Source of the DNA: Acidobacteriota bacterium
GTDB lineage: Bacteria > Acidobacteriota > Terriglobia > 20CM-2-55-15
DNA: 64,000 bases
Assembly (NCBI GenBank): GCA_022821145.1
Contig: JAJEEE010000076.1
Coordinates: 1 to 64,000 of the forward strand
Direction: 5' to 3'
Shown here piece by piece: positions 1 through 24,049 of the stretch (position 1 is the stretch's first letter; each line of letters opens with the position of its first letter). The translations under genes were made by a program, and so were the position numbers. The notes under the pieces are model-generated. The model ran no database searches. It had not been told where the DNA came from and worked only from the letters and a program-made list of their open reading frames with translations.

Positions 1-1789
1 TTCCCTCCAGGGAGAACATCCACACGCTGTCGCCGCGCGGCGTCCCGGCAAAGAGATTGCCGGCGGAGTAGACGACGACGCGCTGAACCCCGTCGTGCTC
101 GAACACGCTGGCCGGAGCATTGACGCCCGCGCCGGTCTGGAACTCCCACAGCAATGCCCCGTCGCTGGAGTCCAGCGCCGTGAACCGCCCGTCGTTCCGG
201 CCCACGAAGACCAACCCCCCGGCCGTGTTCACCGAACCGCTGTAGCAGGTGTCGGCCCATCGTTGGCGCCACACGATCCGGTTCGTCGACATGTCCATGG
301 CGGCGAAGATGCCCGTCGTCGGAATGTCGATGACCGTGAAAGCGCCGCCCATTCGGGCCTCCCCGGGCTCCGGCGCGGCCGACACCGGGACCGCGGCCAT
401 CGACATGATCCGGTCCACGGCGCAGACGTACAGGATGCCGGTCTCCGGATCGTAGGACGACGGCGGCCAGTTCGCGCCCCGCGGCTTCATGATGACCGGC
501 TCGTCCCAGAACGGGGTGAAGATGCGGCCCTCGTTGACGAGCGTGAAGCCCTCGGGCGCGATGTCGATCTCCTGGGGCGCGAAGGCGTCGCCGACCGGAT
601 AGGGCTGCGTCGCCGCGGTGAACTGACGGGGCTCCTGCGGCACGGGCCGCTCCTCGATTCCGATCAGGGGTTCGCCGGTGACCCGGTCGAGGATGTACAC
701 CCAGCCGGTCTTCCCCGCCGCCGCCAATCCCCGCCGAGGGGCGCCATCGATCTCCAGGTCGAACAGCACGACGGGGTTGGCGCCGTCATAGTCCCACAAG
801 TCGTGATGCACCGTCTGGAAGTGCCACCGGTAGGCGCCCGTCGCCGCGTCCAGCGCGACGATCGAGGCCGTGAACAGGTTGTCCCCGGGACGGATCGATC
901 CGTTGAGATCGGGACTGGCGTTGGCCGTAAAGAAGTAGATCGTCCCGAGGTCGGGATCGACGGCCGGCGTCTGCCAGATCGCACCGCCACCGTACATCCA
1001 CGCGTCGTTGTCCGCGGGCCACGTTTCAGAACCGGGCTCGCCGGGCGCGGGAATCGTGTAGAACGTCCAGACCAGCGAGCCGTCGGCCGCGTCGTAGGCC
1101 TTGATCCGGCCCCGCGTCGCCCGGTCGCCGCCCGCGAATCCCTGGATCACAAGCCCGTCGTGGTAGAGCGGCGCCGCGGTGATCGAGAACCCCTCCTGCC
1201 AGCGTTCGGCCTGGACGGCCCAATCGACGTCGCCGGTCTGCTGATCCAGCGCGACGAGGCGTCCGTCCAACTGCCCGACGTACACGCGGCCGTCGCCCAG
1301 CCCCACTCCCCGGCTCAGCCAACCGCAGCAGACGCTGTTGATGGACGGATCGAGCCGCGCCTGGTACTTCCACAGGATGCGGCCGGTCTCCACGCTCAGC
1401 GCGAACACGTCGTCCGCGCCCGTGACCATGTAGACCACTCCGTCGTGGACGATCGGCTGCGCCTCGCCGGAGTAGCGGGCGCCCGCTCCGGAGGCGTCCA
1501 GGTGCGTCCGCCAGTCGGCGCGAAGCTGATCCACGTTGCCGCGATGGATCTGGGCGAGCGGCGAGTGGCGCTGGTTGAACAGGTTCCCACCGTTGGTCGG
1601 CCAACCGTCGGTCGGAAGGCGCACCAGCTCCGCTCCTGGGAACGCGGGCGCATCGATGATCACGCCCTCGGTGCTCTGTTCCGGCGCCGGGACGGCGGCC
1701 GCGGCCGCCGAGATCAGACTTAATGCTGCAACGGCTCGAAAAAGGAACCCGTGGCTGCGCTGAACAGGCGGATCAATCCGATGACGCAC
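1..1789 (-). CDS. PQQ-dependent alcohol dehydrogenase-like quinoprotein (C-terminus beyond window)
   Basis: Secreted quinoprotein of the PQQ alcohol/methanol dehydrogenase family, which oxidises alcohols in the periplasm and passes electrons to cytochrome c. About 596 residues are visible and the 3' end lies outside the window. The start is a GTG preceded by AGGGAG about 8 nt upstream and followed by a signal peptide (hydrophobic stretch about residues 15-33, Ala-rich cleavage region). The mature part reads as repeated beta-propeller blades with tryptophan-docking motifs such as VVWTFYTIP, YRWHFQTVHHDLWDYD and GWVYILD. Adjacent cysteines at residues 154-155 (SVCCGW) match the vicinal disulfide near PQQ in this family. 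Whether a C-terminal cytochrome c domain follows cannot be seen. Substrate is unknown. Confidence 0.9.
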   Translation of the reverse strand, partial: MRHRIDPPVQRSHGFLFRAVAALSLISAAAAAVPAPEQSTEGVIIDAPAFPGAELVRLPTDGWPTNGGNLFNQRHSPLAQIHRGNVDQLRADWRTHLDASGAGARYSGEAQPIVHDGVVYMVTGADDVFALSVETGRILWKYQARLDPSINSVCCGWLSRGVGLGDGRVYVGQLDGRLVALDQQTGDVDWAVQAERWQEGFSITAAPLYHDGLVIQGFAGGDRATRGRIKAYDAADGSLVWTFYTIPAPGEPGSETWPADNDAWMYGGGAIWQTPAVDPDLGTIYFFTANASPDLNGSIRPGDNLFTASIVALDAATGAYRWHFQTVHHDLWDYDGANPVVLFDLEIDGAPRRGLAAAGKTGWVYILDRVTGEPLIGIEERPVPQEPRQFTAATQPYPVGDAFAPQEIDIAPEGFTLVNEGRIFTPFWDEPVIMKPRGANWPPSSYDPETGILYVCAVDRIMSMAAVPVSAAPEPGEARMGGAFTVIDIPTTGIFAAMDMSTNRIVWRQRWADTCYSGSVNTAGGLVFVGRNDGRFTALDSSDGALLWEFQTGAGVNAPASVFEHDGVQRVVVYSAGNLFAGTPRGDSVWMFSLEG

Positions 1790-2217
1790 GATCTATACTC
1801 CCTATTGATTTGCGCATAATTGGATGACGGTCATCGACTGTCAGTCCCCGGTTTTTGTAGGTGTTTCGATGGGAAAGGCGTCACTCTAACTTCGTGAGCC
1901 TCAGGAATCGGCACAACGCGTAGGATCGCCCGCACGAACAACACACGTGTCCCGCGACCTGAGACGCACGGAGTCACCATTTGTGCCGTTCATCGTCCGC
2001 ATCTGCTCAGTTGCCCCCGTGGTTTTGGTGACACGAGCGCCTTTCCAAGTGAACTATGTGCCGGTACGGCCGACGTCGGGAATCGTCGCTGATTTGACGA
2101 TAACGTCGCCGGGATCCGACGACCGGGTACGCGCTACCGCGTCTCCGAACGTGAAGCGGATCACTGTCACGTCGAGGATAGAGTAGTATTTCCATGACCT
2201 GCGGCGCTTCGAATCGG
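1790..2217. other. intergenic region, no gene recognised
   Basis: About 430 bases between the PQQ dehydrogenase and the end of the large ATPase gene. Short open frames occur on both strands but none shows a recognisable domain or a convincing ribosome binding site. The base composition is less GC-rich than the flanking dehydrogenase gene, so the edge of the accessory island probably lies here. I found no attachment site or clear terminator. Confidence 0.5.
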
Positions 2218-5200
2218 TCAATTTGGAAGACTGTCGACGGACTTCGCTTGCTCTGCCACCATTCGCCACGACTTGCCGCACAACATCCACTTCGTGGCGG
2301 CCCGCGCGGGATTCCGTATAGGGAGCACCTGGTAGCCGCCTTCTTGCGTTTTCTCCACTACGTACAGATACCACGACTCGGTCGTCTCGAATGCCTTCCG
2401 AATCTGGGCGACGCTAAGCTCGACAACTTCGTTATTCTCCCACGGACAACCCTTTCCCTTGACCTCAATGAGCCGCACCTCTTCCGTCTCCCGGTCGATG
2501 CTTCGGATATCCCAGCCGGACTGGTGCGGATCACCGATCTCCGGCTCGCGTCCCGCCTCTTTCTCATACCGCGCAGCGATCTCTCTGTACTCTTCATCTC
2601 CGAGACCCTTGTCCTTGTCTCCCTTCGCCAAGACAGCCTCGACCGCGTCGTCTTCTTCGATGCCAGGCGAAATTTCCCCTTTGAGCGATTTCCTCAACTG
2701 GTCAGCAAGAGCGTTCTGTCTTGCCAGAGCTCTTTCTCTGACGTACGAGCCACCCGTCGAAACTGATTCCTCGTCCTCAGATTCATCCCCTTTTGCAGCC
2801 ATCGGGCCCTTTGCCATCTCAGTCCGGGACTGATCGCCGTCACCTCGTTCAGACACGTCGGACGCCGGTGTCCCCCCAAACGGAACATTTCCGTCGGCTC
2901 CCGATCTTGTAGCTTCCCCGCCAAACTTGGCCATCCCCTCCGACTTCGGCTCCGAACCAACTCCCAGGCTGCTTCTCAAGTCTTGCTTGAACCGCACCAG
3001 CGCCTCCACGTCCGGCACATGAGACCGGCAAAATTTCTCGGCGGCGAGACCGAAGTCCGTGCTCTCGATTGCCACAAACATCCCTGTAAGATCGGCCGCC
3101 AGACCGGCACGTTGCCCAAACGAAAAGTGACGCAGCAACTCCTTCGCCGCATCTGCACCGAATTGCGCGGGCCGACCGGCTACCGTCAGCGTTCCCTCGT
3201 GGAGTCGAGCATTAACGGGGACCGCTTCAATGGAAGAATTGTCGACGCTGACGCTCAACGACAGTTCGGAAGCATGAATCAACCGCACACTCGTTCCGTT
3301 GTCGGCCGCGTCTCCGCCCAGAGGCTCGCTTCCCCGCACCTTTCGGAGAAGTTCGCAAATGCATTCGAATCTCCACACCCACACATCCGAGAGACGCGAG
3401 ACCTTGTCCCCGCCCACCCACTCCATGTTTACTACTGAAGACAACAGTCGCAGGCCTATCGCTTTCGCCGTACAAAGTTGATCGATCCGACCGCGCCCCA
3501 GATGCCCGGCTGTCACGGTTCGCAACTTAACTTGCCTCGGTAAAAAACGCCGGTCTTCAATGTCGTCGAAGTAAGTATCGTCAACCTCACTCAATGCAAT
3601 CCATTCTCGCTCGGAGAAAACCGCCGCCTGCGACACTGCTTCCCGCCATCGCTTCAACAGCGATGCATCCTTCGCTGTGTCTTCCAAGCAATAGCCATAC
3701 GCCGTCGGCAGGAACTCACGACACTTGTTTGCAAGCCCCTCGGGCGACGACCGGGCACGTCGCCACACATCCACGATATAACCAAGCGCCTGCTCACCCG
3801 TTGTTGTCACCGGAAACTCGCGCGGAAACTCAGCGTCTTCCAACTCCCCGCGCAAGGTCTCTTCTATGTCGTCCAACGGAACAATCCACCCGCCAAGGGA
3901 AGCACGGAGCCCCCCTCCAACGCGCTGTACTATTCGGTTGATTGCGACACGTTCGCCGCCGGTCGTCGGCAACAAGAGGTTGTCAAGCGACTGATCGAAT
4001 AATTGTCGGTCTATGCCCTCGGTTGCGTCTTTACGGCACTCGGCGAGAAGCCCTGCCAGTTCATCCGCATCCAACTGCGAGCCGATGACTATGAGTCTGC
4101 GAACCGATGTCAATTCAGGAACCGCCGCGCCGAACCCGACTCCCTCCCGTTCTAATACGTTCACCAGTTCGGCCGACAAATCTGCGACCGGCGCGTCTTC
4201 CCGGGCCGGATCCGACTCGGGAAGTACGTCCCGCGGGCGTCGGAGCGTCTCGTCGTAGCAAGGAACCCAGGCTAGATCGGAGAGTTGTCGTGCCCAGGCG
4301 CTTGATTCCGATCCATTTCGTTCGTCAGGACTGTAATAGAAACACGTTACTTTTCGCTTCCCCTTGCCTTCAAGGATTCTAATGCTGTCTTCGAGGCATG
4401 GCGCGATCGCCGCCCGCAGTTCCTTGGGTGTGTCTGGAGCCGGGATTTCCGGAACGACGCGGAAATCCAAGAGTCTGTAACCCTGATCGTTCGCTTGTGG
4501 AATCTCTTCGACCCTCCGACCGAGAAATCTCGCCACCTTCGGAGTCTCCCATCGAGTCGCAGTGATCTCTGTTGATCGTACCTCTAACGCACCTTTCGCG
4601 CCGGCCTTTTCGAAAAACGTCCGCCAGTCGTGAGCGCCAGCGCTCTTCGGATCCTGCTGGAAATACACCCCAGCGATCGCCGGAACGTCTGTCCACAGAC
4701 GCCGACGACTTTCACCGTGATCGACATAGGGGTCTGCCAAGAGTGCTTTTCCTATCGGAACGCTAGCCACGCTGCCATGAGATTGAACGACAACGTGAAT
4801 TAACAGATCCGGCCGATTGCGATGCTTTGCCCAATGCCCGAAAGAGGCGAATGCCGACCAATTTGGATCTTTGGGTATTGTCTCAGCTTCAAAGACCTTC
4901 ACAACAAGTTCTCGAAGACTGATGCCGCGGGCGTTATGCTCGATCCACGACCATGCCTCAAAAATGAGCTCTTGCTCATGTCCTTGATTCTTTCGCTGGC
5001 GAAGGGTTGCAATCAAATCGGAGTCCAAGCGGTTCGCATTGGGAACGAATGCCTGCATCAGGCCACGCGTCTCGCTTCCCCCCGGCTCGTCATCGGTAGG
5101 GAGCGCCTCGTTAAGAAACACGGCTTCATCGACGGCGATCCACGCTCCAGTCGCAGACCGAATGCATCTAACATCAAGTTTGTTCCACCTGTCATCAGCA

Positions 5201-6762
5201 GATAATTGGCCGATTGCAGCCCAGAGTCGCACGAGCAGCTTTCGACGAAACCCTTCCTCACCCCGGATCGAAGTCCACCACTCGTCAAGTCCGCCATACC
5301 ACGCATCTTCAAGGTCGCTTGGAGACATCTCGGCCAGAACCGTTACACTGCGGAAAAACTCTAGCGCCCTCGATCCAAGGACGTCAGTCATCAGTACCGG
5401 GCGATTGAACAGAATCGCCGGTTTCAACGCCGGTTGACTCTCAAAAGCGGTCGCAAGCGGACCCGGTGGAACCAGAACGTCGGCCGGCTTCGCATAAGCC
5501 ACATTGCTCGTCGCTTTTGTCCAAACCGGGACAACGGCGGCGTCATTAATGTGGTCTCGCAACGTTGAGAGCCAACCGTCCGCGGCAATCAGCGACTCAA
5601 TGCCATCGGCTTCGGGAGACGGTCGCCGAAGAACCTTGAAGGCCGCGGTCGCCGCTGGCCGTTGAGAGTGCGCCTTAGCCGACCATTCAAGAAAGTGCGC
5701 CAGAATCTCGGCGATCTTATCGATTATATGACGTTGCCAAGGATTGTCTTCAACGGCCCGCAAGTTCTTCCGGGAGATGTTCAAAAGCCAATCGGCATTG
5801 ATGTGGAGGCCAAATGGTAACGTGTCTTCTGTTGGTAACGTAGCGTAAACGTGTCCCGTTGATGGCGGTTCGGGCATGCCATCGTTGTCCAAAGGCAGCA
5901 CACCAAGCACGCGGCGAGGTCGAGCCGCTTCGTCGTACACCTGCTCTCGGACAGCTGGGTCTGGTTGAATTCTTCGGTGTTCAAGAAAACAGGCGATCGC
6001 CTCCTTTGACGGCATGAATCGCGCGGCGAATACTCGCCAAAGCCGATTCTCATTATCCGAAAGCGCCGTGACCTCGAAGCTTCCGTCTGCGTCTTTGGTG
6101 ACGCCTAACTCCCAAATCCGACCATCGATTTCGAGGCGCTTCAGATCGGACATGGCCAAGATGGCAAGCGGTGTACGATCATCTTCAGGAAGAAGACGGG
6201 CAACGTCGGATTTGAGATCGGCTCCGTCATCCGTTCGACGCCGCATTTCGAAACGGGTCGTGTATCCGTTCTCTGGCAGTGCGATCCGCTCATCCCAGAT
6301 TGGGATCACAGCCCCGAGTAAGTCTCGTTGTTTATCTCCGAATTTTTCACCAACGACTTGCGTTGTCTCATAACGAAATCTCCAACCCCATCCGGAGACC
6401 ATAGCCTCGTAAAAACGAACAAAGACGCTCTTGAAACCGATTCCCATGAACCCCACCGAACGCGCGCCCTTCGTAGATCGGAAGATTTTCGACAGCCCCT
6501 CAACGTCGCGCTCGTTGAACTCACGACTGCCATTGTGCTGGAAGGTCAGAGCTTCGCCGGTAGCGCTAATGCGAATCGCGATAGAGCTCGCGCCTACGTC
6601 AAGCGCGTTTTGCACGAGTTCATAGAGATAAACCCAACGATGGTCGAACGTTAGCTCAATGACGCTTAACAGAGCGCGCCCATCCGGCGATCCGTAGAAT
6701 TTACGGTTTTCGTCGCCCAACTCGGAAACAAATCCTCGACGAGAGTGTTTCGTGCTATCCAT
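2218..6762 (-). CDS. sacsin-like GHKL ATPase with C-terminal DUF3883 nuclease-like domain (putative defence protein)
   Basis: A 1514-residue protein. The N-terminus carries a GHKL ATPase fold of the sacsin/Hsp90-like type: N-box ELVQNALD (residues 48-55), a G1-like FQHNG (74-78, with His where Asp is usual) and the lid glycines GFMGIGFKS (104-112). The long middle has no domain I recognise. The C-terminus, about residues 1410-1490, matches DUF3883: GWDI supplies the Asp near 1417, EVKGKG the E-x-K near 1433-1435 and VAQIRKAF a downstream Gln, the order expected of a PD-(D/E)xK-like nuclease core. In the families known, this ATPase-plus-DUF3883 design occurs among bacterial defence genes and the plant protein NO VEIN. 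Its ATG overlaps the stop of the truncated SDR frame by 8 bases. Base composition is clearly lower in GC than the flanking genes, which suggests transfer. A defence role is inference. Confidence 0.8.
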   Translation of the reverse strand: MDSTKHSRRGFVSELGDENRKFYGSPDGRALLSVIELTFDHRWVYLYELVQNALDVGASSIAIRISATGEALTFQHNGSREFNERDVEGLSKIFRSTKGARSVGFMGIGFKSVFVRFYEAMVSGWGWRFRYETTQVVGEKFGDKQRDLLGAVIPIWDERIALPENGYTTRFEMRRRTDDGADLKSDVARLLPEDDRTPLAILAMSDLKRLEIDGRIWELGVTKDADGSFEVTALSDNENRLWRVFAARFMPSKEAIACFLEHRRIQPDPAVREQVYDEAARPRRVLGVLPLDNDGMPEPPSTGHVYATLPTEDTLPFGLHINADWLLNISRKNLRAVEDNPWQRHIIDKIAEILAHFLEWSAKAHSQRPAATAAFKVLRRPSPEADGIESLIAADGWLSTLRDHINDAAVVPVWTKATSNVAYAKPADVLVPPGPLATAFESQPALKPAILFNRPVLMTDVLGSRALEFFRSVTVLAEMSPSDLEDAWYGGLDEWWTSIRGEEGFRRKLLVRLWAAIGQLSADDRWNKLDVRCIRSATGAWIAVDEAVFLNEALPTDDEPGGSETRGLMQAFVPNANRLDSDLIATLRQRKNQGHEQELIFEAWSWIEHNARGISLRELVVKVFEAETIPKDPNWSAFASFGHWAKHRNRPDLLIHVVVQSHGSVASVPIGKALLADPYVDHGESRRRLWTDVPAIAGVYFQQDPKSAGAHDWRTFFEKAGAKGALEVRSTEITATRWETPKVARFLGRRVEEIPQANDQGYRLLDFRVVPEIPAPDTPKELRAAIAPCLEDSIRILEGKGKRKVTCFYYSPDERNGSESSAWARQLSDLAWVPCYDETLRRPRDVLPESDPAREDAPVADLSAELVNVLEREGVGFGAAVPELTSVRRLIVIGSQLDADELAGLLAECRKDATEGIDRQLFDQSLDNLLLPTTGGERVAINRIVQRVGGGLRASLGGWIVPLDDIEETLRGELEDAEFPREFPVTTTGEQALGYIVDVWRRARSSPEGLANKCREFLPTAYGYCLEDTAKDASLLKRWREAVSQAAVFSEREWIALSEVDDTYFDDIEDRRFLPRQVKLRTVTAGHLGRGRIDQLCTAKAIGLRLLSSVVNMEWVGGDKVSRLSDVWVWRFECICELLRKVRGSEPLGGDAADNGTSVRLIHASELSLSVSVDNSSIEAVPVNARLHEGTLTVAGRPAQFGADAAKELLRHFSFGQRAGLAADLTGMFVAIESTDFGLAAEKFCRSHVPDVEALVRFKQDLRSSLGVGSEPKSEGMAKFGGEATRSGADGNVPFGGTPASDVSERGDGDQSRTEMAKGPMAAKGDESEDEESVSTGGSYVRERALARQNALADQLRKSLKGEISPGIEEDDAVEAVLAKGDKDKGLGDEEYREIAARYEKEAGREPEIGDPHQSGWDIRSIDRETEEVRLIEVKGKGCPWENNEVVELSVAQIRKAFETTESWYLYVVEKTQEGGYQVLPIRNPARAATKWMLCGKSWRMVAEQAKSVDSLPN

Positions 6763-7231
6763 CGGCCATCCCCTGCATCAAATCGTGCCGCGCGGCCACC
6801 GCGGCCCAATGGGCCACGCTGGGCGAGTACCACAACCCGCCGAACCGTGCGATGATAACCATCACCTTGGGGTTGTTCGAGCGCCGGAGCGGGAGCAGGA
6901 ACGCGTGCGTGACGTGGAGCGGCCAGAGGTCGTTTTTGTCCAGCACGCCAGTTTTGTCGTCCACGCCGGCCGCGCGCGCCCGGTCCGCGGGTCGGCCCGA
7001 GGTGCCGGCGTCGTCGACAAGAACGTCAACGGGCCCCTCGACGCCGTCCCGAGCGAGTTCGATGGCGTCCGCGTCGCGCACGTCGAACCGGACGGTCTGC
7101 AGGCGTTCGTGGCGTATCGGCGGGTCACCGCCGCGCACGGAGCCGATCACCTCGTCGCCGCGCTCCAGGAGCCGCCGCGTCAGGGGGAGGCCGATGCCGC
7201 GCCCGCATCCGGTGATCAGATAGGTCGCCAT
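6755..7231 (-). pseudogene. truncated short-chain dehydrogenase/reductase
   Basis: The N-terminal half of an SDR: an NAD(P)-binding start with TGCGRGIG near residue 7 and an NNAG-like site changed to VDDAG. The frame ends after about 158 residues, whereas SDRs usually have 230-280. The expected Tyr-x-x-x-Lys catalytic pair is not recognisable: the segment after GGLWYSPS reads AHWAAVAARHD, without the lysine. The stop lies inside the start region of the large ATPase gene. I read this as a gene broken when the island entered or rearranged. A short functional SDR-like protein is less likely. Confidence 0.6.
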
Positions 7232-7622
7232 CACGTGAGAGTAGCAGATAGGTGATGTTCTCTGCCCGCGCCGCGCGCGACGCCGATACAGATCCAAGCT
7301 CAACCGTATCGTGTGACGGCCCATGGTTGACGGAAGGCATGCGGTTCGTGGCAGTGTCACGGAGGCTTGGTGCGCCTGGAACGTGGCCATCCGGTTACGT
7401 GGACCTGAGCAGGCGGCCATTACCGGTGGTCGCACCGGTCGTGCTCAGCACGGTGACCCGGTGCTCCGTGAACGCCATTCGGCCGTCGCTCCGTCTGCGA
7501 ACGATCACGATCGGCTCAAGCGATCGAAAACTCCGTCGGACGGGTTTCTGCGAAAATCATCGCTGGCGGGTGTCCGGCCAAATATCGAGCGCGACCCAAC
7601 GCTGCCGCGCGAGGATCACAGC
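7232..7622. other. intergenic stretch inside the defence island, no intact gene
   Basis: About 390 bases between the truncated SDR and the PIN-like fragment. Open frames exist on both strands but show no domain, no ribosome binding site and no coherent composition. It is best explained as decayed sequence. Confidence 0.4.
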
Positions 7623-7703
7623 GTGGTTCGGGAACGGATTCTGCCCATCGATACGGACGTTGTCGACGGTTGGGGCCGGCTGATGGCCCGCGAATACAAG
7701 GTG
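7623..7703 (+). pseudogene. possible fragment of a PIN-domain (VapC-like) toxin
   Basis: One frame here reads RILPIDTDVVDGWGRLMA, which resembles the segment near the C-terminus of VapC/FitB toxins, where a conserved Asp sits before a Trp-Gly-Arg-Leu helix. The N-terminal acidic residues of the PIN active site are not seen upstream in this or neighbouring frames, and no antitoxin gene is present. It is probably a remnant of a toxin-antitoxin locus. The evidence is one short motif, so chance similarity remains possible. Confidence 0.3.
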
Positions 7704-7770
7704 GACCTGTTCTATCCCCACCATCGGCTACTCTGGATGAAAGTCAACTTGAAGCCTTCGATCGATTTGA

Positions 7771-9243
7771 ATGAATCCGCTGTCTGACCAATCAAAGAAA
7801 GTAACCGGCAGCTACTACACTCCGCCCGCCGTCGCGGCGTCCCTGGTCCGCTGGGCCGTCCGCCATCCGAACGAGAGGATGCTCGACCCTGCGTGTGGTG
7901 ATGGGCAGTTCCTCGCCCTCCACAGAAAGAGCGCCGGCGTCGAGCGGCAACCCAGTGCGGCCAAGAGCGCGATTCGGCGTGCGCCATGGGCCATGATCCA
8001 CGAAGGCGAGTTCTTCTCGTGGGCATCGCAGACGGAAGAACGCTTCGACTGTGCCGCCGGCAATCCTCCGTTCATCAGATATCAGCACTTTACGGGCCGA
8101 GTCCGACGGGATGCGCTAGCTCTATGTAACACGCTCGGAGCATCGTTTTCGTCCCTGACCTCTTCCTGGGCTCCCTTTCTTGTGGCTTCCGCGTCGCTGC
8201 TTCACAAGGGAGGTCGGATGGCCTTCGTCGTCCCCGCGGAAATCGGACATGCGCCGTATGCAAAGCCGTTGCTTGAATTCCTGGCGAATCACTTCGGACG
8301 AATCTCTGTGGTAGCCGTGCGGCGGAAGCTATTCGCCGATTTGAGCGAGGACTGTTGGCTGCTCTATGCCGAAGATCACGGATCCAAAGCTCAAGGCTTC
8401 AATCTGATCTCGATCGAATCGTTCGCCCCGACTGCGCAACCACCACGTGGCGGAGCGTTCATCTCCTTGGCGGAGTGGCGTACATGGAACGGCCGCCTCC
8501 GTCCGTTCCTCACCCCCTCCACCGTGCGGTCGATCTATTCCGACCTCGGCCAGGGTGGCGCTGAAGCTGTGCGACTCGGTGATATCGCGAAGGTCGGCAT
8601 CGGCTACGTGACCGGCGCGAACACGTTTTTCCACCTCAGGCCATCTCGGGCGCACAGCCTTGGAATCCCGCGCGCGTTCCTTCAACCAACAGTTCGGGCT
8701 GGCAAGGATCTTCCGAAAAACGCGGTCAACCACGCGACATTGCAACGCTGGTATCGGCAGGATGAGCCCATTCTCCTGCTTCGGATTCCGAAAGGAGGAA
8801 ACCTGACTCCCGCGGTCCGTGGATATTTGGACAGCGCAGCCGGTCAATCAGCCCGCGACACATACAAATGTCGGACTCGCGACCCATGGTACGTCGTGCC
8901 GCACGTTTCGATTCCCCACGCCTTCCTGGCGTACATGAGCGGGCAGGCAGTCGGGTTGGCCGCCAATCACGCGAAGTGCGCCTGCACCAATAGCGTTCAC
9001 GCGATTCATTTGACCGGCGAAATGCCCATGTCCGTCCTGAAGAAGCGTTGGGCCAGCCCTTTGACGCGTTTGAGTTGTGAATTCGAGGGACATCCTCTCG
9101 GGGGCGGTATGCTGAAGCTGGAACCGACGGAGGCCAAACGCGTAGTCTTGTCTGACCGATTCCTCTCTCGCGCCGACGCCGAGATCGTGCGGGCGGGGAT
9201 CGATCGGTTGCGGAGTTGGAGGCACTGTGAGTCCGACGCCTGA
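7771..9243 (+). CDS. Eco57I/TaqI-type N6-adenine DNA methyltransferase
   Basis: A 490-residue gamma-class adenine DNA methyltransferase that transfers a methyl group from S-adenosylmethionine to the N6 of adenine. Motif X is GSYYTP (residues 13-18), motif I is DPACGDGQF (39-47) and the catalytic motif IV is NPPFIRY (98-104). The C-terminal half, about 250-490, should be the target-recognition region and has no recognisable second domain. Its last codons overlap the next gene, which starts 17 bases before this stop, so the two are one transcription unit and form a probable restriction-modification pair. The recognition sequence cannot be predicted from the sequence alone. Confidence 0.88.
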   Translation: MNPLSDQSKKVTGSYYTPPAVAASLVRWAVRHPNERMLDPACGDGQFLALHRKSAGVERQPSAAKSAIRRAPWAMIHEGEFFSWASQTEERFDCAAGNPPFIRYQHFTGRVRRDALALCNTLGASFSSLTSSWAPFLVASASLLHKGGRMAFVVPAEIGHAPYAKPLLEFLANHFGRISVVAVRRKLFADLSEDCWLLYAEDHGSKAQGFNLISIESFAPTAQPPRGGAFISLAEWRTWNGRLRPFLTPSTVRSIYSDLGQGGAEAVRLGDIAKVGIGYVTGANTFFHLRPSRAHSLGIPRAFLQPTVRAGKDLPKNAVNHATLQRWYRQDEPILLLRIPKGGNLTPAVRGYLDSAAGQSARDTYKCRTRDPWYVVPHVSIPHAFLAYMSGQAVGLAANHAKCACTNSVHAIHLTGEMPMSVLKKRWASPLTRLSCEFEGHPLGGGMLKLEPTEAKRVVLSDRFLSRADAEIVRAGIDRLRSWRHCESDA

Positions 9244-10126
9244 ACCGCCCCGATGGATAGGGCTCCGAGAAGCGCTTTCGATATTCGCGGTCGCCCGAGA
9301 CGGCACACAGGGACAGCGACACATCAAGCCGTTGCACTGGTACGTCGCATGTCGTTTGGTCGTAGAAGGTGGATTCGATCCGAACAGCGTCGTTCCGCGT
9401 CCGCCGTTCGTCGTAGAAAAACGGCGACGTCAGGGCAACCAACTCATCTTTGACCCGGGTTCCGCGGTTCCCGGGGAGCGAACTCTCTTGGGGGGTCTCA
9501 AGACGAAAGCCGTCGACGTTGTGGTCTCGCTGGATGGCATCGGACCGTGTGTCGCGGTTTCGATGAAGGGGACGCTGAACGCGTTCAGGAACCTGACGAA
9601 CCGGATGGAAGAGGCGGTCGGCGATTGCACGAATATTCACATCGCCTACCCGGCGCTCGTATACGCGTTCTGGAACGTATTGCGCGCGAACAGGCAGGGT
9701 CCTGTTCCCGTGAACACGCCCGAGGCCATCGGGACCGACGAGAACGGGAATTACAAACCCGCTGACGTTGCTGTGGATAGCGACGGGTCCGCGACCAGCC
9801 AGATCCAGCGTTACCACTTCGCTCTGGAAGGCCTGTCCGGTCGGTCCAGTGTTCGGGAGGAACCATCTTCGTACGAAGCGGTTGGAATGACGCTTGTTGA
9901 GGCGGATTCGGGTCGTCTCGGCGGTGTATTCCCAGACTATCCGGAAGCCGGCAGTCCATTGCTGGTCGACCGCATGTTCAGCGCACTCTATGAGCAGTAT
10001 GATCTTCGTTTCATCTACCAGGCGCCGGCCTTGGTCTCTCGCACGCAGCGACTCGAGTGGGCGCCGGACAGTCCGGCCCTAAAAAAGCTACCCGTCGAAT
10101 ACGCGCCGCGTATCGCGGCCGGCTAG
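9227..10126 (+). CDS. putative restriction endonuclease partner of the methyltransferase
   Basis: A 299-residue protein starting at a GTG with GGAGG about 6 nt upstream, inside the end of the methyltransferase gene. Residues about 90-145 look like a restriction-endonuclease core: KAVDVVVSLDG supplies an Asp on a strand, followed by CVAVSMKGT, where a lysine sits in an S-x-K instead of E-x-K arrangement, then NLTNRMEEAVGD, an acidic helix, and a strand leading to IAYPALVYAFW. Size, overlap and operon position fit a type II endonuclease encoded beside its methyltransferase. I do not recognise the exact family, and the Ser in place of the catalytic Glu leaves activity uncertain. Confidence 0.6.
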   Translation: MSPTPEPPRWIGLREALSIFAVARDGTQGQRHIKPLHWYVACRLVVEGGFDPNSVVPRPPFVVEKRRRQGNQLIFDPGSAVPGERTLLGGLKTKAVDVVVSLDGIGPCVAVSMKGTLNAFRNLTNRMEEAVGDCTNIHIAYPALVYAFWNVLRANRQGPVPVNTPEAIGTDENGNYKPADVAVDSDGSATSQIQRYHFALEGLSGRSSVREEPSSYEAVGMTLVEADSGRLGGVFPDYPEAGSPLLVDRMFSALYEQYDLRFIYQAPALVSRTQRLEWAPDSPALKKLPVEYAPRIAAG

Positions 10127-10186
10127 CTTCGATTGCGTGAAAGCGGACACAGATCTCCGCCCCCAGTTGAGCGCTCCCGCCTCGTT

Positions 10187-11791
10187 ATGACACGCTCCTA
10201 CGACGTCATCGTCATCGGCGCTGGCCACAACGGCCTGGTGCACGCCGCCTATCTCGGGCGCGCGGGGCTGCGGGTCCTGGTGCTGGAACGGCGCCCGATC
10301 GTCGGCGGCGCCGCCGTCACCGAGGAGATCGTCCCCGGGTTCCGGTTTTCCGTGGCGTCCTACGTCGTGTCCCTGCTCCGGCCCGAGATCATCCGCGAGC
10401 TGAACCTCCGCCGTCACGGCCTCGAGATCATCCCGCTCGACGGCACGTTCACGCCCTTGCCCGGCGGGGACTCCCTGTGGCGGCGGGACGATCCGGAACA
10501 CACCCGCCGCGAGATCGGCCGCTTCTCGCGGCGCGACGCGGACGCCTACTTCGAGTTCGAAGGCGCCATGGCGCGGATGTCGCGCTTCGTGCGCCCGTTG
10601 CTGGGGACGGCCCCACCCGACGTCCACGCGCCGGGATGGTCCGGCCTGGGGCGCCTCGGACGCCTGGTCTGGCGCTTCCGGAATCTGCCGCCGGCGGATC
10701 GGGATCTCTTCATGCGCCTGATGACGATTTCGGCCGGCGACTTCGTCGAGGACTGGTTCGAGACCGACGTCCTGCGGGCCACCCTTTCGGCCTCCGGCAT
10801 CATCGGCACGTTCCTCGGCGTGCGCTCGCCGGGGACGGCCTACGTGCTGCTGCACCACTACATGGGCGAGATCGACGGCGCGGACCGGGCCTGGGGCCTG
10901 CCGCGCGGCGGCATGGGCAGCGTCTCGAACGCCATCGCGGCCGCCGCGCTCGAAGCGGGCGTGGAGATACGGACCGGGACGGCGGCGGCGGCCGTGCGCT
11001 CGGGCGGCGGCCGCGCCACCGGCGTCGTGCTCGACAACGGCGACGAGATCCCGTGCCGCGCCGTCTCGTCGAGCCTCGACCCGCGCCAGACCTTCCTCCG
11101 CATGGTGGGCCGGGACGCGCTGCCCCCCGACTTCGCCGCCGCCATCGGCCGTTATCGGTTCCGCGGATGCTCGGCCAAGGTCAACCTGGCGTTGGACGGC
11201 CTGCCCGCGTTCGGAGGTCCCCTCCCCGGCACGGCTCACCTGGCGGGGGCCGTCTCGATATCCCCGGGGATGGACTACATGGAACGCGCCTACGACGACG
11301 CCAGGCGCGGACGGTTCTCCGAACGGCCCTACATGGACATCGTCATCCCGACCCTTCTCGACGACTCGCTTGCGCCTCCGGGCAAGCACGTCATGTCCTG
11401 CTTCGTTCAGTATGCGCCCTACCGACTGCGGGACGGCGAGTGGGACCGGCGGCGCGACGCGCTCGGAGATTGCGTGATCGACACGCTCGCCGAGTACGCC
11501 CCGGACCTTCCCGACCGGATCGTGGGCCGGCAGGTGCTGACGCCGCTCGACATCGAACGCACGTTCGGTCTGACCGAGGGGAACATCTTCCAGGGCGAGC
11601 TCTCGCTGGAACAGTTGTTCTTCAATCGCCCGGTCCCCGGCTGGGCGGGATACCGGACGCCGGTTCGCGGCCTCTACCTGTGCGGGTCGGGCGCGCACCC
11701 GGGCGGCGGCGTGATGGGCGCCCCGGGCCGGAACGCCGCCCGGACCGTGATCGCGGACCTCAGCCGGCCCAACGCACGGCGAGCCGGGTGA
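10187..11791 (+). CDS. FAD-dependent phytoene desaturase-like oxidoreductase (PYROXD2-like)
   Basis: A 534-residue flavoprotein. The N-terminal dinucleotide-binding fold is YDVIVIGAGHNGLVHAAYL, followed by LERRPIVGGAA, typical of the phytoene dehydrogenase/carotenoid isomerase/PYROXD2 superfamily. A C-terminal flavin motif reads LYLCGSGAHPGGGVMGAPGR. I chose the ATG just before TRSYDVIVIG because the upstream in-frame codons carry no conserved sequence. The substrate is unknown, and no carotenoid genes are nearby. Its 3' end overlaps the convergent aminotransferase gene by 32 bases. Confidence 0.85.
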   Translation: MTRSYDVIVIGAGHNGLVHAAYLGRAGLRVLVLERRPIVGGAAVTEEIVPGFRFSVASYVVSLLRPEIIRELNLRRHGLEIIPLDGTFTPLPGGDSLWRRDDPEHTRREIGRFSRRDADAYFEFEGAMARMSRFVRPLLGTAPPDVHAPGWSGLGRLGRLVWRFRNLPPADRDLFMRLMTISAGDFVEDWFETDVLRATLSASGIIGTFLGVRSPGTAYVLLHHYMGEIDGADRAWGLPRGGMGSVSNAIAAAALEAGVEIRTGTAAAAVRSGGGRATGVVLDNGDEIPCRAVSSSLDPRQTFLRMVGRDALPPDFAAAIGRYRFRGCSAKVNLALDGLPAFGGPLPGTAHLAGAVSISPGMDYMERAYDDARRGRFSERPYMDIVIPTLLDDSLAPPGKHVMSCFVQYAPYRLRDGEWDRRRDALGDCVIDTLAEYAPDLPDRIVGRQVLTPLDIERTFGLTEGNIFQGELSLEQLFFNRPVPGWAGYRTPVRGLYLCGSGAHPGGGVMGAPGRNAARTVIADLSRPNARRAG

Positions 11792-12929
11792 TCCGGTCGA
11801 CGGCTTCGAGGATGTTCTCCATGGAGTTGGCGTAGCTGAACCGGATGTAGCCGTCGCCGAACTCCCCGAATCCGGCGCCGTCGAGGCAGGCGACCCCGGC
11901 CTCGTTCAGAATCATGTCCGCCAGCTCGCCCGACGCCACGCCGGTCGCCGTCACGTTCGGGAACACGTAGAACGCGCCGGCGGGGCGCGAGCACCGGAAT
12001 CCCGGCACGCGGTTCAGGCCCTCGACGATGGCGTCGCGGCGGCGCCGCAGCTCGGCCACCATCCGGGTGACGCTGTCCTGGGGACCCGAGAGCGCCTCCA
12101 TGCCCGCGCGTTGGGTGAAGCTGGCCGTGCAGGAGTTCGAGTTGACCATCAGCGTGGTGATCGCCTCGGCCAGTGGCACGGGCATGACGCCGTAGCCCAG
12201 CCGCCAGCCCGTCATCGAGTAGGTCTTGGAGAACCCGTCCAGGATGATCGTCTTTTCCAGCATCCCGTCGAACCGGGTGATCGACGCCGGCCGGCGCTCG
12301 TACCAGATCCGGGAGTAGATCTCGTCGCTCAGCACGATCAGGTCGCGGTCGCGCACCAGCTCCGCGATCTCGGCGAGGTCGCCCTCGGGAACCAGCCCGC
12401 CCGTCGGGTTCGCCGGCGATATCAGGATCACCATGCGCGTCCGGTCGGACAAGCGTCGGCGGAACGTCTCGAGGTCGAACGAGAAGCCCCGGTCCTCCAC
12501 CAGAGGGATGGGCACGGGCGTCGCTCCCTGGTAGCGGATCATGGACTCGTAGATCGGGAACCCGGGATTGGGATAGATCACCTCGTCGCCGGGACCGGCC
12601 AGCGCCATCAGGCTGAAGAACATGATCGGCTTGCCGCCGGGCACGACGCAGACGTTCTCCATCGTCACCGGGATGTTCCGGGACTCGGCGATGTGCGACG
12701 CGATCAACTCGCGGAACTCCGGGAAACCGGCCGCGGGCCCGTACTTGGTCTCCCCCGCCCCCATGGCCCGCTGTCCGGCGGCGACGATGTTGGGCGGCGT
12801 GGGAAAGTCCGGCTCTCCGATCTCGAGATGAACGATGCTGCGGCCCTCGGCCTCCAGGGCGCGGGCCTTGGACAGGACCTTGAACGCGGACTCGGTCCCG
12901 ATGCGGGACATGCCTTCGGCCAGTCTCAT
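11760..12929 (-). CDS. class I/II pyridoxal-phosphate aminotransferase
   Basis: A 389-residue fold-type I aminotransferase (aspartate aminotransferase family). Features seen are the N-terminal EIGEPDFPTPP, the substrate-side segment ISPANPTGG, SDEIYSRIWY with the cofactor-contacting Asp and Tyr, the Schiff-base lysine in GFSKTYSMTGWRLGY, and a C-terminal arginine in YIRFSYANS that usually binds the substrate carboxylate. Specificity, aspartate versus aromatic or other amino acids, cannot be fixed by eye. No clear ribosome binding site precedes the chosen ATG; the ATG six codons later is an alternative. Confidence 0.88.
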   Translation of the reverse strand: MRLAEGMSRIGTESAFKVLSKARALEAEGRSIVHLEIGEPDFPTPPNIVAAGQRAMGAGETKYGPAAGFPEFRELIASHIAESRNIPVTMENVCVVPGGKPIMFFSLMALAGPGDEVIYPNPGFPIYESMIRYQGATPVPIPLVEDRGFSFDLETFRRRLSDRTRMVILISPANPTGGLVPEGDLAEIAELVRDRDLIVLSDEIYSRIWYERRPASITRFDGMLEKTIILDGFSKTYSMTGWRLGYGVMPVPLAEAITTLMVNSNSCTASFTQRAGMEALSGPQDSVTRMVAELRRRRDAIVEGLNRVPGFRCSRPAGAFYVFPNVTATGVASGELADMILNEAGVACLDGAGFGEFGDGYIRFSYANSMENILEAVDRITRLAVRWAG

Positions 12930-13006
12930 GAGAAAAAGCGTCTCGAATGGTGGGACGGACCCGGGAGGCGGCACGCGGCCGCCCCCCGGCGTCTCGAAGC
13001 GTCCGT

Positions 13007-13816
13007 CTAGAGCGGATTGTCCGGCATGGCGATGGACCGCCACATGTGCGCGACGGGACTCGAATCGTAACCGAGACCTTCCTTCGGCTGCCTGAAGTGC
13101 CGGCCCAGGATGTCCACGTACGGCTCGATGGACAGCTCGACCCCTTCCTGGAAGGCGTACAGATCGTTGACGGTCACCATGCGGGCGTACATGTACCACT
13201 GGTGGTTGGACGCGTACTCGGCCGCCGCCTGGATATAAGGCTCCGGTACGTAGTCCTCCCCGAAGATCCGGTGATACAGGTCGGGGTACAGGTAGCCGTT
13301 CTCGCGGTCCGCGTAGAAACGCAGCGCCTGGTGGTACCGGATCGCCCAGCTTGTCTTGGCGGGCACGTACGGCTCGTACAACTGCGCGCCCCAGTACCCG
13401 TGGTCCACCTTGATCAGCTCCTGGACCGTGTCGTGGAGCAGGCACGCCAGGACGATCTCCTCCTCCATGCCGTTCTTGAGGGCGCGGTCCGCGCTCTGGA
13501 AGCAGTGGTTCCGCGTGCGCTGGAACCGGTGCTCGAAGAAGTCCTCGATCGTCGGCCGTTCCGGCATCGGCTCGAGCATCGCGACGTCGGACCCGTCCCG
13601 CGTCAGGAGCAGGTTGCCGACGCCGCGCCGGTAGGGCCGGGTCGTGATCTGGGCCAGGACTTCCTCGCGCGTCGGGAAACCGCCGGCCTGTTGCGGCGTC
13701 GTCCGCTCGACCAGGTACGCTTCCAGGGCCTCGGCCCGCGCCTCGGAACTCATCGCGCCGACGGCGCCCGCACCGCCGATGCTGGCCATGAAATGCCGTC
13801 GATCAATCTGGATCAT
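13007..13816 (-). CDS. TAT-exported HD-domain-like protein of unknown function
   Basis: A 269-residue protein starting at an ATG preceded by AAGGGGGG. The N-terminus IDRRHFMASIGGAGAVGAM is a twin-arginine type signal, so the protein is probably exported folded, perhaps with a metal cofactor. The body has spaced histidines and an LLHD motif (HCFQSAD, then CLLHDTVQELIKVDHGYWG, then WAIRYHQALRFY), as in HD-type metal-dependent phosphohydrolases and mixed-valence di-iron oxygenases such as PhnZ and myo-inositol oxygenase. Which activity it has is unknown. A TATAAT on this strand at 13849-13844 is a plausible -10 box, giving a leader of roughly 20 nt. Confidence 0.65.
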   Translation of the reverse strand: MIQIDRRHFMASIGGAGAVGAMSSEARAEALEAYLVERTTPQQAGGFPTREEVLAQITTRPYRRGVGNLLLTRDGSDVAMLEPMPERPTIEDFFEHRFQRTRNHCFQSADRALKNGMEEEIVLACLLHDTVQELIKVDHGYWGAQLYEPYVPAKTSWAIRYHQALRFYADRENGYLYPDLYHRIFGEDYVPEPYIQAAAEYASNHQWYMYARMVTVNDLYAFQEGVELSIEPYVDILGRHFRQPKEGLGYDSSPVAHMWRSIAMPDNPL

Positions 13817-13973
13817 GGGTCCCCCCTTCCGGAATTCCACGCCATTATATTCATGCTTCCGGGTCCGCTGGCAACGAACGCGCCTGGATTTCGCGCCGTT
13901 CAACCTCTATGGTTACGCGGGAGGGCCCCGAGCACGGGACCGAGGCCGGTCCGGGACGGCCTGACGACCACCC

Positions 13974-15527
13974 ATGGCGACAGCCTCGAAGACGGACTAC
14001 ACGCTGGGTCAGGACAACATCCGGTTCCTGGGCCTCGATGTCCACAATCCGGTCTTCATCGTCTCCAGCCTCAGCATCATCGCGTTCTCGGGCGCGGTGC
14101 TGGCGTTTCGGGCCGAGGCGGCGACCGCCTTCGAGGCGCTGCGCGCCTGGCTGATGTCGACCTTCGACTGGGTCTTCATGGGCGCGGGCAACCTGTTCGT
14201 GCTCTTCTGCCTGTGGCTGGCCGTGACGCCGCTTGGGCGAGTGCGTCTGGGCGGCCCCGGCGCCCGGCCCGACTACTCCCGGCCGGCCTGGTTCGCCATG
14301 CTGTTCGCCGCCGGGATCGGAATCGGCCTGATGTTCTTCGGCGTGTCGGAACCCGTGGAGCATTTCCTCGAACCCCCGCTGGGGCTGGTTGGCGAAGACG
14401 CGGCGGTGGCCCGCCTGGCCATGGCCGGCACGATTTACCATTGGGGAATCCACGGATGGGCCATCTACGCGGTGGTGGCGGTGTCGATCGCCTTCGCGGC
14501 GTACAACCTCGGCCTGCCGATGACGCTGCGGTCGGCCTTCTACCCCCTGGCCGGGAAGGCGGTGTGGGGCCGCATCGGCCATGCGATCGACACGCTCGCC
14601 GTCTTCGCGACGCTGTTCGGACTGGCCACGTCGCTCGGCCTGGGCGCGGAACAGGCCACGGCGGGCGTCGCCCTGCTCTGGGACGTGCCGTCCACCCGAA
14701 CCACCCAGGTGCTGCTGATCGCGGGCATCACCAGCATGGCGCTCGCGTCGGTCATCAGCGGCATGGACAAGGGAATCAAGCGGCTGAGCGAGGCCAACGT
14801 GCTGGTCGCGATGCTGCTGCTGGCGTTCGTGCTGATTCTCGGGCCGACGCTCGATGTCGCCATCGGCGTGGCGGCCAGCCTCGGCCAGTACCTCGCGTCG
14901 ATCGGACCGCTCAGCAACTGGGTGGGACGCGAAGACTTCGATTTCATGCACGGCTGGACCACGTTCTTCTGGGCGTGGTGGATTTCATGGTCGCCGTTCG
15001 TCGGGCTCTTCGTGGCCCGGATCTCGCGCGGTCGAACCGTTCGCGAGCTGATCGTCGGCATGCTGGTCCTCCCGACGCTGTTCATCACGCTCTGGATGAA
15101 CGCCTTCGGCGGCGCCGCGGTGTCGCAGTACGTCGAGTCCGGCCATCCCGACGTCGTCGCGGCGGTCGAGGCCGGCCAGCCTGAAATCGCCCTGTTCGCC
15201 ATGCTGGAGACGTTGCCGCTGGCCAGTGTCACCTCCTTCATCGGCGTTGTGCTGGTGGTGGTGTTCTTCGTGACCTCGTCCGACTCAGGATCGCTGGTCA
15301 TCGATACGATCACCGCCGGCGGCAAGCTGGACCCGCCCATCGCCCAGCGCGTGTTCTGGTGCCTCTTCGAAGGGATCGTCGCGATCGTGTTGCTGCTCGG
15401 CGGCGGCCTCGTCGCCGCGCAGGCCGCGACGCTGGCCACCGGGCTGCCCTTCGCGCTGGTCATGCTCGCCATGTGCTACGGCACGTGGAAGGGCCTGCGC
15501 GCCGCCGCGCGGGGAGCGGTCAGATGA
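13974..15527 (+). CDS. BCCT-family transporter (betaine/choline/carnitine type)
   Basis: A 517-residue inner-membrane transporter with about 12 hydrophobic segments. Diagnostic BCCT features are GIGIGLMFFGVSEPVEHF, the aromatic stretch HWGIHGWAIYA and WAWWISWSPFVGLFVARISRGR followed by SSDSGSLVIDT. Family members take up quaternary ammonium osmolytes such as glycine betaine, choline or carnitine with Na+ or H+, often under osmotic stress. The regulatory C-terminal tail seen in BetP is short here. The gene converges on the SLC6-type transporter gene, with an 8-base overlap of the two stops. Substrate is inferred from the family only. Confidence 0.92.
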   Translation: MATASKTDYTLGQDNIRFLGLDVHNPVFIVSSLSIIAFSGAVLAFRAEAATAFEALRAWLMSTFDWVFMGAGNLFVLFCLWLAVTPLGRVRLGGPGARPDYSRPAWFAMLFAAGIGIGLMFFGVSEPVEHFLEPPLGLVGEDAAVARLAMAGTIYHWGIHGWAIYAVVAVSIAFAAYNLGLPMTLRSAFYPLAGKAVWGRIGHAIDTLAVFATLFGLATSLGLGAEQATAGVALLWDVPSTRTTQVLLIAGITSMALASVISGMDKGIKRLSEANVLVAMLLLAFVLILGPTLDVAIGVAASLGQYLASIGPLSNWVGREDFDFMHGWTTFFWAWWISWSPFVGLFVARISRGRTVRELIVGMLVLPTLFITLWMNAFGGAAVSQYVESGHPDVVAAVEAGQPEIALFAMLETLPLASVTSFIGVVLVVVFFVTSSDSGSLVIDTITAGGKLDPPIAQRVFWCLFEGIVAIVLLLGGGLVAAQAATLATGLPFALVMLAMCYGTWKGLRAAARGAVR

Positions 15528-16869
15528 CGCCGATCGCGTGGAGGAACACCAGAACGATCCCCACGGGCACGACGAACTTCAGCAACAGCAGCCAGCCCCG
15601 GTAGAACAGCGCCAACCGGGCGCCGTGTTGGAACTCGCCCCGCCGGATCGCGTCGTCGACCTTCCACGCCGTGAACAGGGCGATGCCCAGCCCCCCGAGA
15701 GGCAGCATCCAGTTCGTCGCCAGGTAATCGAACGTGTCGAACCAGTTGCGGCCGAAAACGGCGGCGAAGCCGTCCCCGAAGAGGGCCGTGCCGCCGCTCA
15801 ATGCCGACGGCACGCCGATCAGGGCGATGATGACGCCCGCCCACACGGTCGCCTTGTGCCGCAGCCAACCCTTCTCGTCGATCAGGTACGACGTCACGAC
15901 CTCCAGCAACGAGATCGCGCTGGTCAACGCCGCGAACACCAGCAGGGCGAAGAACACGATCGCGAAGAAGGTCCCGGCGGGCATCTGGGCAAGCGCGATC
16001 GGAATGCTCACGAACACCAGGCCCGGCCCCTCGCCCGGCTGCATGCCGTAGGTGAAGATGATCGGGAACAGCACCATGCACGCCGTCAGCGCGATCGCCG
16101 TGTCCAGCACGGAGATCGTGATCCCGGACGACACGATGTCGTCGTCCCGGGACAGGTAGCTGCCGTAGGTCAGCATCGCGCCCATGCCCAGGCTCAGCGT
16201 GAAGAAGGCGTGCCCGAGGGCTTCCAGCACACCGGCCGCGGTGAGGTTCTCGGTACGGAAGCCGAAGACGAAGTCCAACGCCTGGCCGAAACCGCCCAGT
16301 GTCAACCCGTTCACCAGAAGGATCAGCATCAGGCCGCCGAGGACAGGCATCAGAATGCGCGCCCACCGCTCGATGCCCTTGTTGACGCCGCCCCACACCA
16401 CGCCGATGGTGAGGGCCATGAACACGGTGTGCCAGAACAGGTTCAGGCCGTTGGACGCGAAGAGTTCGCCGAAGAGCGGCACGACGCCGTCGGGACCCAG
16501 GTCGACGATGCGCCCCGATATCGCCAGGTAGGTGTAGTGCATGGCCCAACCGGCCACGACGCTGTAGTAGGACAGGATGACGAACCCGCCCAGGACTCCC
16601 AGGCCGCCGAATACGACCCAGAAGCCACCGCCGAGCGCCCGGAACGCGCCGACCGGCGACTTCTGCGACGCGCGGCCCAGCAGGATCTCGGCGATCATGA
16701 CGGGAAGACCGACCAGCGCGATACAGGCGAGGTAGACCAGGACGAACGCGCCGCCGCCGTTTTCTCCTGTAATGTAGGGGAACTTCCAGATATTCCCCAG
16801 GCCCACGGCCGAGCCGGCCGCCGCCAGAACGAAACCCAGCTTCGAGCCCCAGTGTCCCCGTTCCGCCAC
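15520..16869 (-). CDS. sodium:neurotransmitter symporter family (SLC6/NSS) transporter
   Basis: A 449-residue transporter of the LeuT fold. The N-terminus GSKLGFVLAAAGSAVGLGNIWKFPYITGENGGGAF is the family signature and contains the Na+ and substrate binding backbone of TM1. About 11-12 membrane segments follow. Bacterial members import amino acids with Na+. The start is a GTG with AAGGAGG six bases upstream. An 18-bp perfect palindrome lies 34 bases upstream of this start, in the intergenic region shared with the divergent OsmC gene, and may be an operator. Confidence 0.93.
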   Translation of the reverse strand: MAERGHWGSKLGFVLAAAGSAVGLGNIWKFPYITGENGGGAFVLVYLACIALVGLPVMIAEILLGRASQKSPVGAFRALGGGFWVVFGGLGVLGGFVILSYYSVVAGWAMHYTYLAISGRIVDLGPDGVVPLFGELFASNGLNLFWHTVFMALTIGVVWGGVNKGIERWARILMPVLGGLMLILLVNGLTLGGFGQALDFVFGFRTENLTAAGVLEALGHAFFTLSLGMGAMLTYGSYLSRDDDIVSSGITISVLDTAIALTACMVLFPIIFTYGMQPGEGPGLVFVSIPIALAQMPAGTFFAIVFFALLVFAALTSAISLLEVVTSYLIDEKGWLRHKATVWAGVIIALIGVPSALSGGTALFGDGFAAVFGRNWFDTFDYLATNWMLPLGGLGIALFTAWKVDDAIRRGEFQHGARLALFYRGWLLLLKFVVPVGIVLVFLHAIGVI

Positions 16870-16902
16870 GGCGGCCTCCTTCCCTTCCGCTTGTCGAAAA
16901 AA

Positions 16903-16920
16903 GCGTATGGTACCATACGC
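16903..16920. promoter_or_regulatory. 18-bp perfect palindrome, candidate operator
   Basis: The sequence GCGTATGGTACCATACGC equals its own reverse complement over 18 bases. It lies between the divergent SLC6 transporter and OsmC genes, 34 bases upstream of the former start codon and 113 bases upstream of the latter. Position and symmetry fit a dimeric repressor site, for example of a GntR-type regulator, but no regulator gene is adjacent and the binding protein is unknown. Confidence 0.5.
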
Positions 16921-17033
16921 GCTCGCCCGGACCCGGGGGGCGCCGGACCGAGACAAGGTCTTTGTTCACTGGCGATTACATGTCTTCTCCCGCGCCGGAG
17001 CGGGGCCGGGAGACGGGCGCCGGAGGTCGATGG

Positions 17034-23951: not shown

Positions 23952-24049
23952 GGGAGTGAGTAGGGTCCGGTGACTCTCCTGGCCTTCAAAGCCAGTGGGA
24001 CGTCGGGGAACCGGCGTCCGGTGGGTTCGACTCCCACGCACTTCCGCCA
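23952..24049 (+). tRNA. selC: tRNA-Sec (anticodon UCA)
   Basis: A 98-base selenocysteine tRNA ending in an encoded CCA. The anticodon loop CTTCAAA, between paired CTGGC and GCCAG, gives anticodon TCA at 23986-23988, which reads UGA. Diagnostic features are a six-pair D stem (AGGGTC with GACTCT) closed by a four-base loop, a very long variable arm with a nine-pair stem (98-106 region GGACGTCGG with CCGGCGTCC, loop GGAA), a five-pair T stem GTGGG/CCCAC and an extended acceptor stem in which the eighth position is an A-G mismatch. It implies that the organism translates some UGA codons as selenocysteine; such a codon is found in the peroxiredoxin gene at 29832. Confidence 0.97.

Follow-up and report, generated by a model that had tools for sequence, protein, structure and literature searches.

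A Tiamat-like gene and a predicted type II restriction-modification pair at a variable defence site of an Acidobacteriota genome

Near the start of a 64,000-nt stretch of an Acidobacteriota contig (hereafter the window), a gene for a giant sacsin-like GHKL protein lies beside genes for a DNA methyltransferase (MTase) and an endonuclease-like protein (REase), raising the question of whether these genes form one defence system, in which a nuclease spares DNA methylated by its neighbour, or separate systems that share a site. The reading favoured here, with a probability of roughly 0.7, is that the site is a hotspot holding two independent systems, a Tiamat-like ATP-gated nuclease (TmtA) and a type II restriction-modification (R-M) pair (Table 1). 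The preliminary description of this DNA had reported a 1514-residue GHKL ATPase ending in a D...ExK...Q signature, an Eco57I-type MTase with an overlapping endonuclease-like gene, lower GC content, and flanking gene fragments. The corresponding open reading frames are present, with the domain matches, conserved residues and MTase motifs described below; the MTase and REase frames share a 17-nt overlap and are transcribed divergently from TmtA. The lower GC content is likewise borne out, at 0.56-0.58 in the TmtA gene and approximately 0.60 in the MTase and REase genes versus 0.65-0.72 in most of the window, and GC3 is 0.60 for TmtA and 0.69 for both MTase and REase versus 0.89-0.93 in neighbouring backbone genes. 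The flanking fragments stood only in part, as the sole clear fragment, a decayed SDR gene, is internal, between TmtA and the MTase, and the gene on the right is intact; the PQQ-dehydrogenase-like gene on the left is indeed incomplete, but through the contig edge alone. A scan for promoters and terminators gave results near chance level. Elsewhere in the window, ARAGORN predicted a selenocysteine tRNA at 23952-24049.

Table 1. Features of the variable block and its flanks (window coordinates)
Feature	Position	Strand	Basis or key elements
Left flank, PQQ-dehydrogenase-like gene, cut by contig edge	1..1789	-	named by sequence alone
Variable 8.4-kb block, absent from sister genome	1810..10198		sister-genome comparison
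TmtA (Tiamat-like), 1514 aa	2218..6762	-	GHKL N-terminus, ~900-aa middle, C-terminal PD-(D/E)xK (NOV_C/DUF3883)
NOV_C/DUF3883 nuclease core, aa 1394-1474	2341..2583	-	E1400, D1418, E1433-V-K1435, Q1453
GHKL nucleotide-binding motifs	6421..6621	-	E48..N52..D55 (N-box), H76-x-G78 (G1 position), G104-FMGIG-FKSVF (G2 box)
Decayed, truncated SDR, 158 codons	6758..7231	-	homology to intact paralogue
Type II N6-adenine-type DNA MTase (Eco57I/M.TaqI class), 490 aa	7771..9243	+	motif I DPACGDGQF, motif IV NPPF
Predicted type II REase, distant XhoI-family relative, 299 aa	9227..10126	+	core D97...S112-x-K114...E128-E129
Right flank, intact phytoene-dehydrogenase-like oxidoreductase	10133..11791	+	98% protein identity in sister genome

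The giant protein matches the sacsin-type GHKL model NF047352 of NCBIfam at its N-terminus (60.5 bits against a cut-off of 50, residues 46-115) and Pfam PF13020 at its C-terminus (E = 3.5e-10, 40.3 bits against a gathering score of 22.1, residues 1394-1474). Eight TmtA models of PADLOC match it, the best being PDLC03966 (E = 5.3e-41), and all nine family members or pieces match at least one of these models. On these profile matches, the protein is assigned to the known Tiamat (TmtA) kind, and the system type is not new; TmtA is the protein of the Tiamat system. The TmtA model matches are confined to residues 46-431 and 1311-1508, i.e., to both ends, and the middle of approximately 900 residues is without a match to any model, in line with the earlier remark that this part holds no recognised domain. 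Internal repeats in the middle were considered and rejected, the best hhalign self-score (23.5) falling within the shuffle null (top 26.5). A sequence search of the PDB with the single TmtA sequence gave no significant match, and a profile search gave weak matches to sacsin and MutL structures.

Residues expected of both modules are retained. E48, N52, D55, G78, G104, G107, G109, and K111 are invariant across the window TmtA and the seven relatives that cover this region, and E1400, D1418, E1433, K1435, and Q1453 are invariant in all five full-length relatives. The classical G1 box of the GHKL superfamily is DxG with an aspartate, which is not conserved here; members of the TmtA subfamily have histidine throughout (His76), and H-D-G also occupies the G1 position of a more distant sacsin-like protein at locus L039. 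Because the G1-box aspartate is histidine across the subfamily, ATP hydrolysis is not assured. An AlphaFold2 model of residues 315-1514, built from an alignment of nine rows, is weak overall (mean pLDDT 53). Within it, residues 1390-1514 (pLDDT mostly 54-84) are predicted to follow the alpha-beta-beta-beta-alpha-beta order of PD-(D/E)xK nucleases, and nearly all top Foldseek matches of the C-terminus in the PDB have the PD-(D/E)xK fold, including Hjc and RecU resolvases, SPARDA nucleases, SwaI, HincII, EcoRV, I-Ssp6803I, and tRNA-splicing endonucleases. The best E-value is 8.5e-3 and none is below 0.001, so the fold argument leans on the consistency of the matches and on the Pfam match. The modelled C-terminus resembles PD-(D/E)xK nucleases, not a fold unrelated to nucleases.

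TmtA is wide across phyla yet sporadic: within the class, 3 of 399 genomes have a match to the protein at E <= 1e-20, and within the phylum, 13 of 396 genomes match a TmtA profile. A scan of genome contigs with the single TmtA sequence recovered no relatives, and the same scan with the TmtA alignment recovered 11 loci. The closest relatives come from Pseudomonadales (60% and 53% identity), Latescibacteria (51%), an Acidobacteriota MAG (51%, partial), and a gammaproteobacterium (44%); those from the same class, in two Bryobacterales genomes, are only approximately 31% identical. In the tree, the window TmtA groups with the Pseudomonadales protein of locus L078 (support 100/99). The position of the nearest relatives in other phyla, together with this grouping, suggests that TmtA was acquired through horizontal transfer. 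Neither TmtA nor REase relatives were found in viral contigs, and no TmtA was found in phage records.

Most relatives reside in defence contexts, contrary to the possibility that homologues would lie mostly outside defence loci. The neighbours of TmtA are a Type III R-M pair with a Schlafen/AlbA protein at L077, an AAA-helicase/PDDEXK protein with AIPR at L080, a UvrD-PDDEXK helicase with a NERD kinase at L081, and an AAA-ATPase_like/PDDEXK_9 protein with an HD/PolyA_pol pair at L075; the L078 gene lies near an integrase and a transposase, and a truncated copy at L082 has an NgoFVII-like PLD nuclease and an HNH protein in its vicinity. The L076 copy, situated between metabolic genes, runs against this pattern. 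Truncated or frameshifted copies are found at L082 (2192-2821), which has the closest N-terminal identity (72%), L083 (9947-10423), and L078 (5660-10128), suggesting that the function may often be lost.

The MTase is matched by PADLOC model PDLC03267 (E = 9e-87). The REase matched zero Pfam families, including the XhoI family (PF04555), and one of its relatives reached E = 0.23 against PF04555. Its seven full-length homologues, 45-50% identical, are carried by proteobacterial plasmids, and in 7 of 7 cases the gene directly follows, and overlaps, an N6-MTase gene; more distant relatives in Gordonia and Pseudonocardia also follow MTases. No TmtA lies near the plasmid or the more distant REase relatives. 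From this gene order, the MTase and REase are seen to be a mobile unit that is found on plasmids with no TmtA nearby.

An hhalign comparison of an eight-member REase profile with XhoI-family proteins gave a probability of 74% and a score of 42.3; as controls, 100 column shuffles scored at most 21.8 and the reversed profile scored 14.9. In this alignment, D97 and K114 of the REase correspond to D92 and K108 of the XhoI family, and the NRxEE segments of the two families coincide, so that the profile match to the XhoI/PaeR7I family extends over D...xK...NRxEE. Differences from that family include length (approximately 300 versus approximately 250 residues) and the replacement of the ExK glutamate by serine (S112) in eight of eight REase family members. 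Restriction enzymes with a D...SxK...E site include Cfr10I and NgoMIV, and E128/E129 of the NRxEE segment may supply the absent acid. The protein is accordingly named a predicted REase, distantly related to XhoI through profile-profile comparison only. A PDB search with the REase profile gave no match, and a single-sequence AlphaFold2 model (pLDDT 30) was discarded.

Comparison with a sister genome of the same genus (G001) shows turnover at the site. Window positions 1-1809 and 10199-17513 are colinear with it at 92% and 96%, respectively, and 2.0 kb stands there in place of the 8.4-kb block. The insert encodes an intact AbiEii toxin (PF08843, E = 1e-39), with an AbiEi-like upstream frame, named by sequence only, that has an in-frame stop near 9694. 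The AbiE-carrying interval (L061, G001:C174, 9472-11236) lies exactly where the block sits in the window. With the block and the AbiE insert each placed between colinear flanks, two species carry different defence systems in one slot, which makes this chromosomal site a defence hotspot, a swappable immunity slot. A search of the block ends for direct repeats found none convincing, and no integrase was recognised beside the block. A 16-nt inverted repeat (94%), possibly due to chance, has one arm just beyond the left end of the block (1756-1771) and the other within the REase gene (9970-9985).

The SDR fragment bears on how the block arose. It shares 63-64% identity with an intact paralogue present in each of the two genomes, and its catalytic Tyr and Lys are replaced. 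Homology to the paralogue stops at ...MQGMA, two codons ahead of the SDR stop, which overlaps the TmtA ATG, the latter lying inside the last SDR codons (ATGGATAG). Since the fragment has near-backbone composition, sits between the two modules and ends at the TmtA start, the variable block looks to have been assembled from at least two pieces.

Tiamat is a single-gene antiphage system (Millman et al. 2022, as cited in PMC12926258). Its mechanism is described as unknown (PMC10482375; PMC12926258), and it has been located in genomic-island hotspots of Pseudomonas (PMC12629846). The window TmtA shares with Tiamat a length of approximately 1500 residues, a sacsin-like GHKL N-terminus and a NOV_C C-terminus, and differs in that only its two ends, not the long middle, match the Tiamat models. 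GHKL-type Shedu proteins (VcSduA/paraMORC3) also combine a GHKL N-terminus and a C-terminal PD-(D/E)xK domain in one chain (PMC12137116), although VcSduA has a DUF4263 nuclease, belongs to a different GHKL family and is much shorter, its nuclease lysine being residue 557. In VcSduA, E27A in the GHKL module or K557A in the nuclease abolished defence and the host survived, and DNA cutting by an ATPase-licensed nuclease has been proposed (PMC12137116). In R-M operons, DUF3883 is carried by SNF2 helicases and has been described there as an REase domain (PMC3710099). Hma/DUF499-centred, BREX-related loci with an SNF2-DUF3883 helicase share the NOV_C nuclease domain with TmtA; unlike TmtA, they are multi-gene, contain a helicase and an MTase, and carry NOV_C on the helicase rather than on a GHKL protein. 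The operon-like locus L039 (G526:C28, 5157-19755) encodes an SNF2-NOV_C helicase, a sacsin-GHKL protein, a DUF1156 MTase-type protein, and an HEPN_Swt1-DUF499 protein. The occurrence of sacsin and NOV_C modules on neighbouring proteins suggests that they work together even when split. The genome of the window itself has a second NOV_C protein, of 1138 residues, in an Hma-like cluster (L048, G000:C73, 55001-75000) with a DUF499 ATPase, a DUF1156-type MTase, and a DUF262-like gene, all named by sequence resemblance only.

By analogy with these systems, the most likely activity of TmtA would be ATP-gated DNA cleavage that protects against phage. Its sacsin/MutL-type GHKL module would probably bind ATP and dimerise, the long middle would serve as a sensor or transducer, and sensing of an invader would bring the GHKL ATPase into a state that licenses the C-terminal NOV_C PD-(D/E)xK nuclease to cut invader DNA. 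The MTase and the XhoI-related endonuclease would protect through ordinary restriction, independent of TmtA. The stand-alone antiphage ATPase-nuclease of the preliminary description is supported by the TmtA model matches, the retained residues (the G1 aspartate excepted), the PD-(D/E)xK-like model and the defence contexts. A more specific version, in which the REase represents an undescribed XhoI-fold branch with a swapped D...SxK...E site and the His-type G1 switch of TmtA gates NOV_C, is offered as a tentative proposal, possible rather than probable.

Coupling of TmtA and the MTase into one Type II/IV-like system, whose nuclease spares neighbour-methylated DNA, would account for their adjacency in the window and has a precedent in more distant sacsin-like GHKL proteins that cluster operon-like with MTases, at L039 and, with an N6_N4 MTase, at L035. 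This idea, raised in the preliminary description together with a proposed check for conserved linkage to methyltransferases, is not supported: no TmtA relative, the close ones included, has the window MTase or REase within flanks of up to 10 kb, the plasmid pairs occur with no TmtA nearby, and in all the full-length plasmid copies examined the MTase is already paired with an overlapping REase. Moreover, the two modules are divergent, have unlike GC3 and are separated by the SDR fragment, all of which makes the coupling highly improbable. Equally doubtful is a role of TmtA outside defence, as a sacsin-like chaperone or housekeeping protein that sits at the site by chance; the sacsin homology of the N-terminus and the metabolic context of the L076 relative would fit such a role, but the sporadic distribution, the conserved nuclease residues, the defence neighbourhoods, and the swap with AbiE argue against it.

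An abortive effector that senses infection and then cuts host DNA or RNA indiscriminately is unlikely, albeit a more serious candidate; the sister locus has the toxin-antitoxin system AbiE in this position, and the reported ignorance of the Tiamat mechanism (PMC10482375) leaves room for it, whereas VcSduA, the nearest tested architecture, is reported to restrict phage while the host stays viable. Decay of the locus, with TmtA left unexpressed, is also quite improbable. Translation of TmtA would start at the dead-SDR junction, so that the ribosome-binding region falls inside former SDR codons, and the homologues at L078, L082, and L083 are truncated or frameshifted; against this, the 1514-codon frame is intact and retains the catalytic residues, and upstream of the TmtA ATG there is an AGGGG sequence that resembles a ribosome-binding site.

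Collectively, the site provides a clean example of a defence slot, holding a Tiamat-like gene and an R-M pair in one species and AbiE in its sister. The complete PD-(D/E)xK site and the GHKL motifs found across phyla make an ATP-gated nuclease mechanism for Tiamat directly testable, and a His-type G1 GHKL switch that gates a NOV_C nuclease would, if true, provide such a mechanism.
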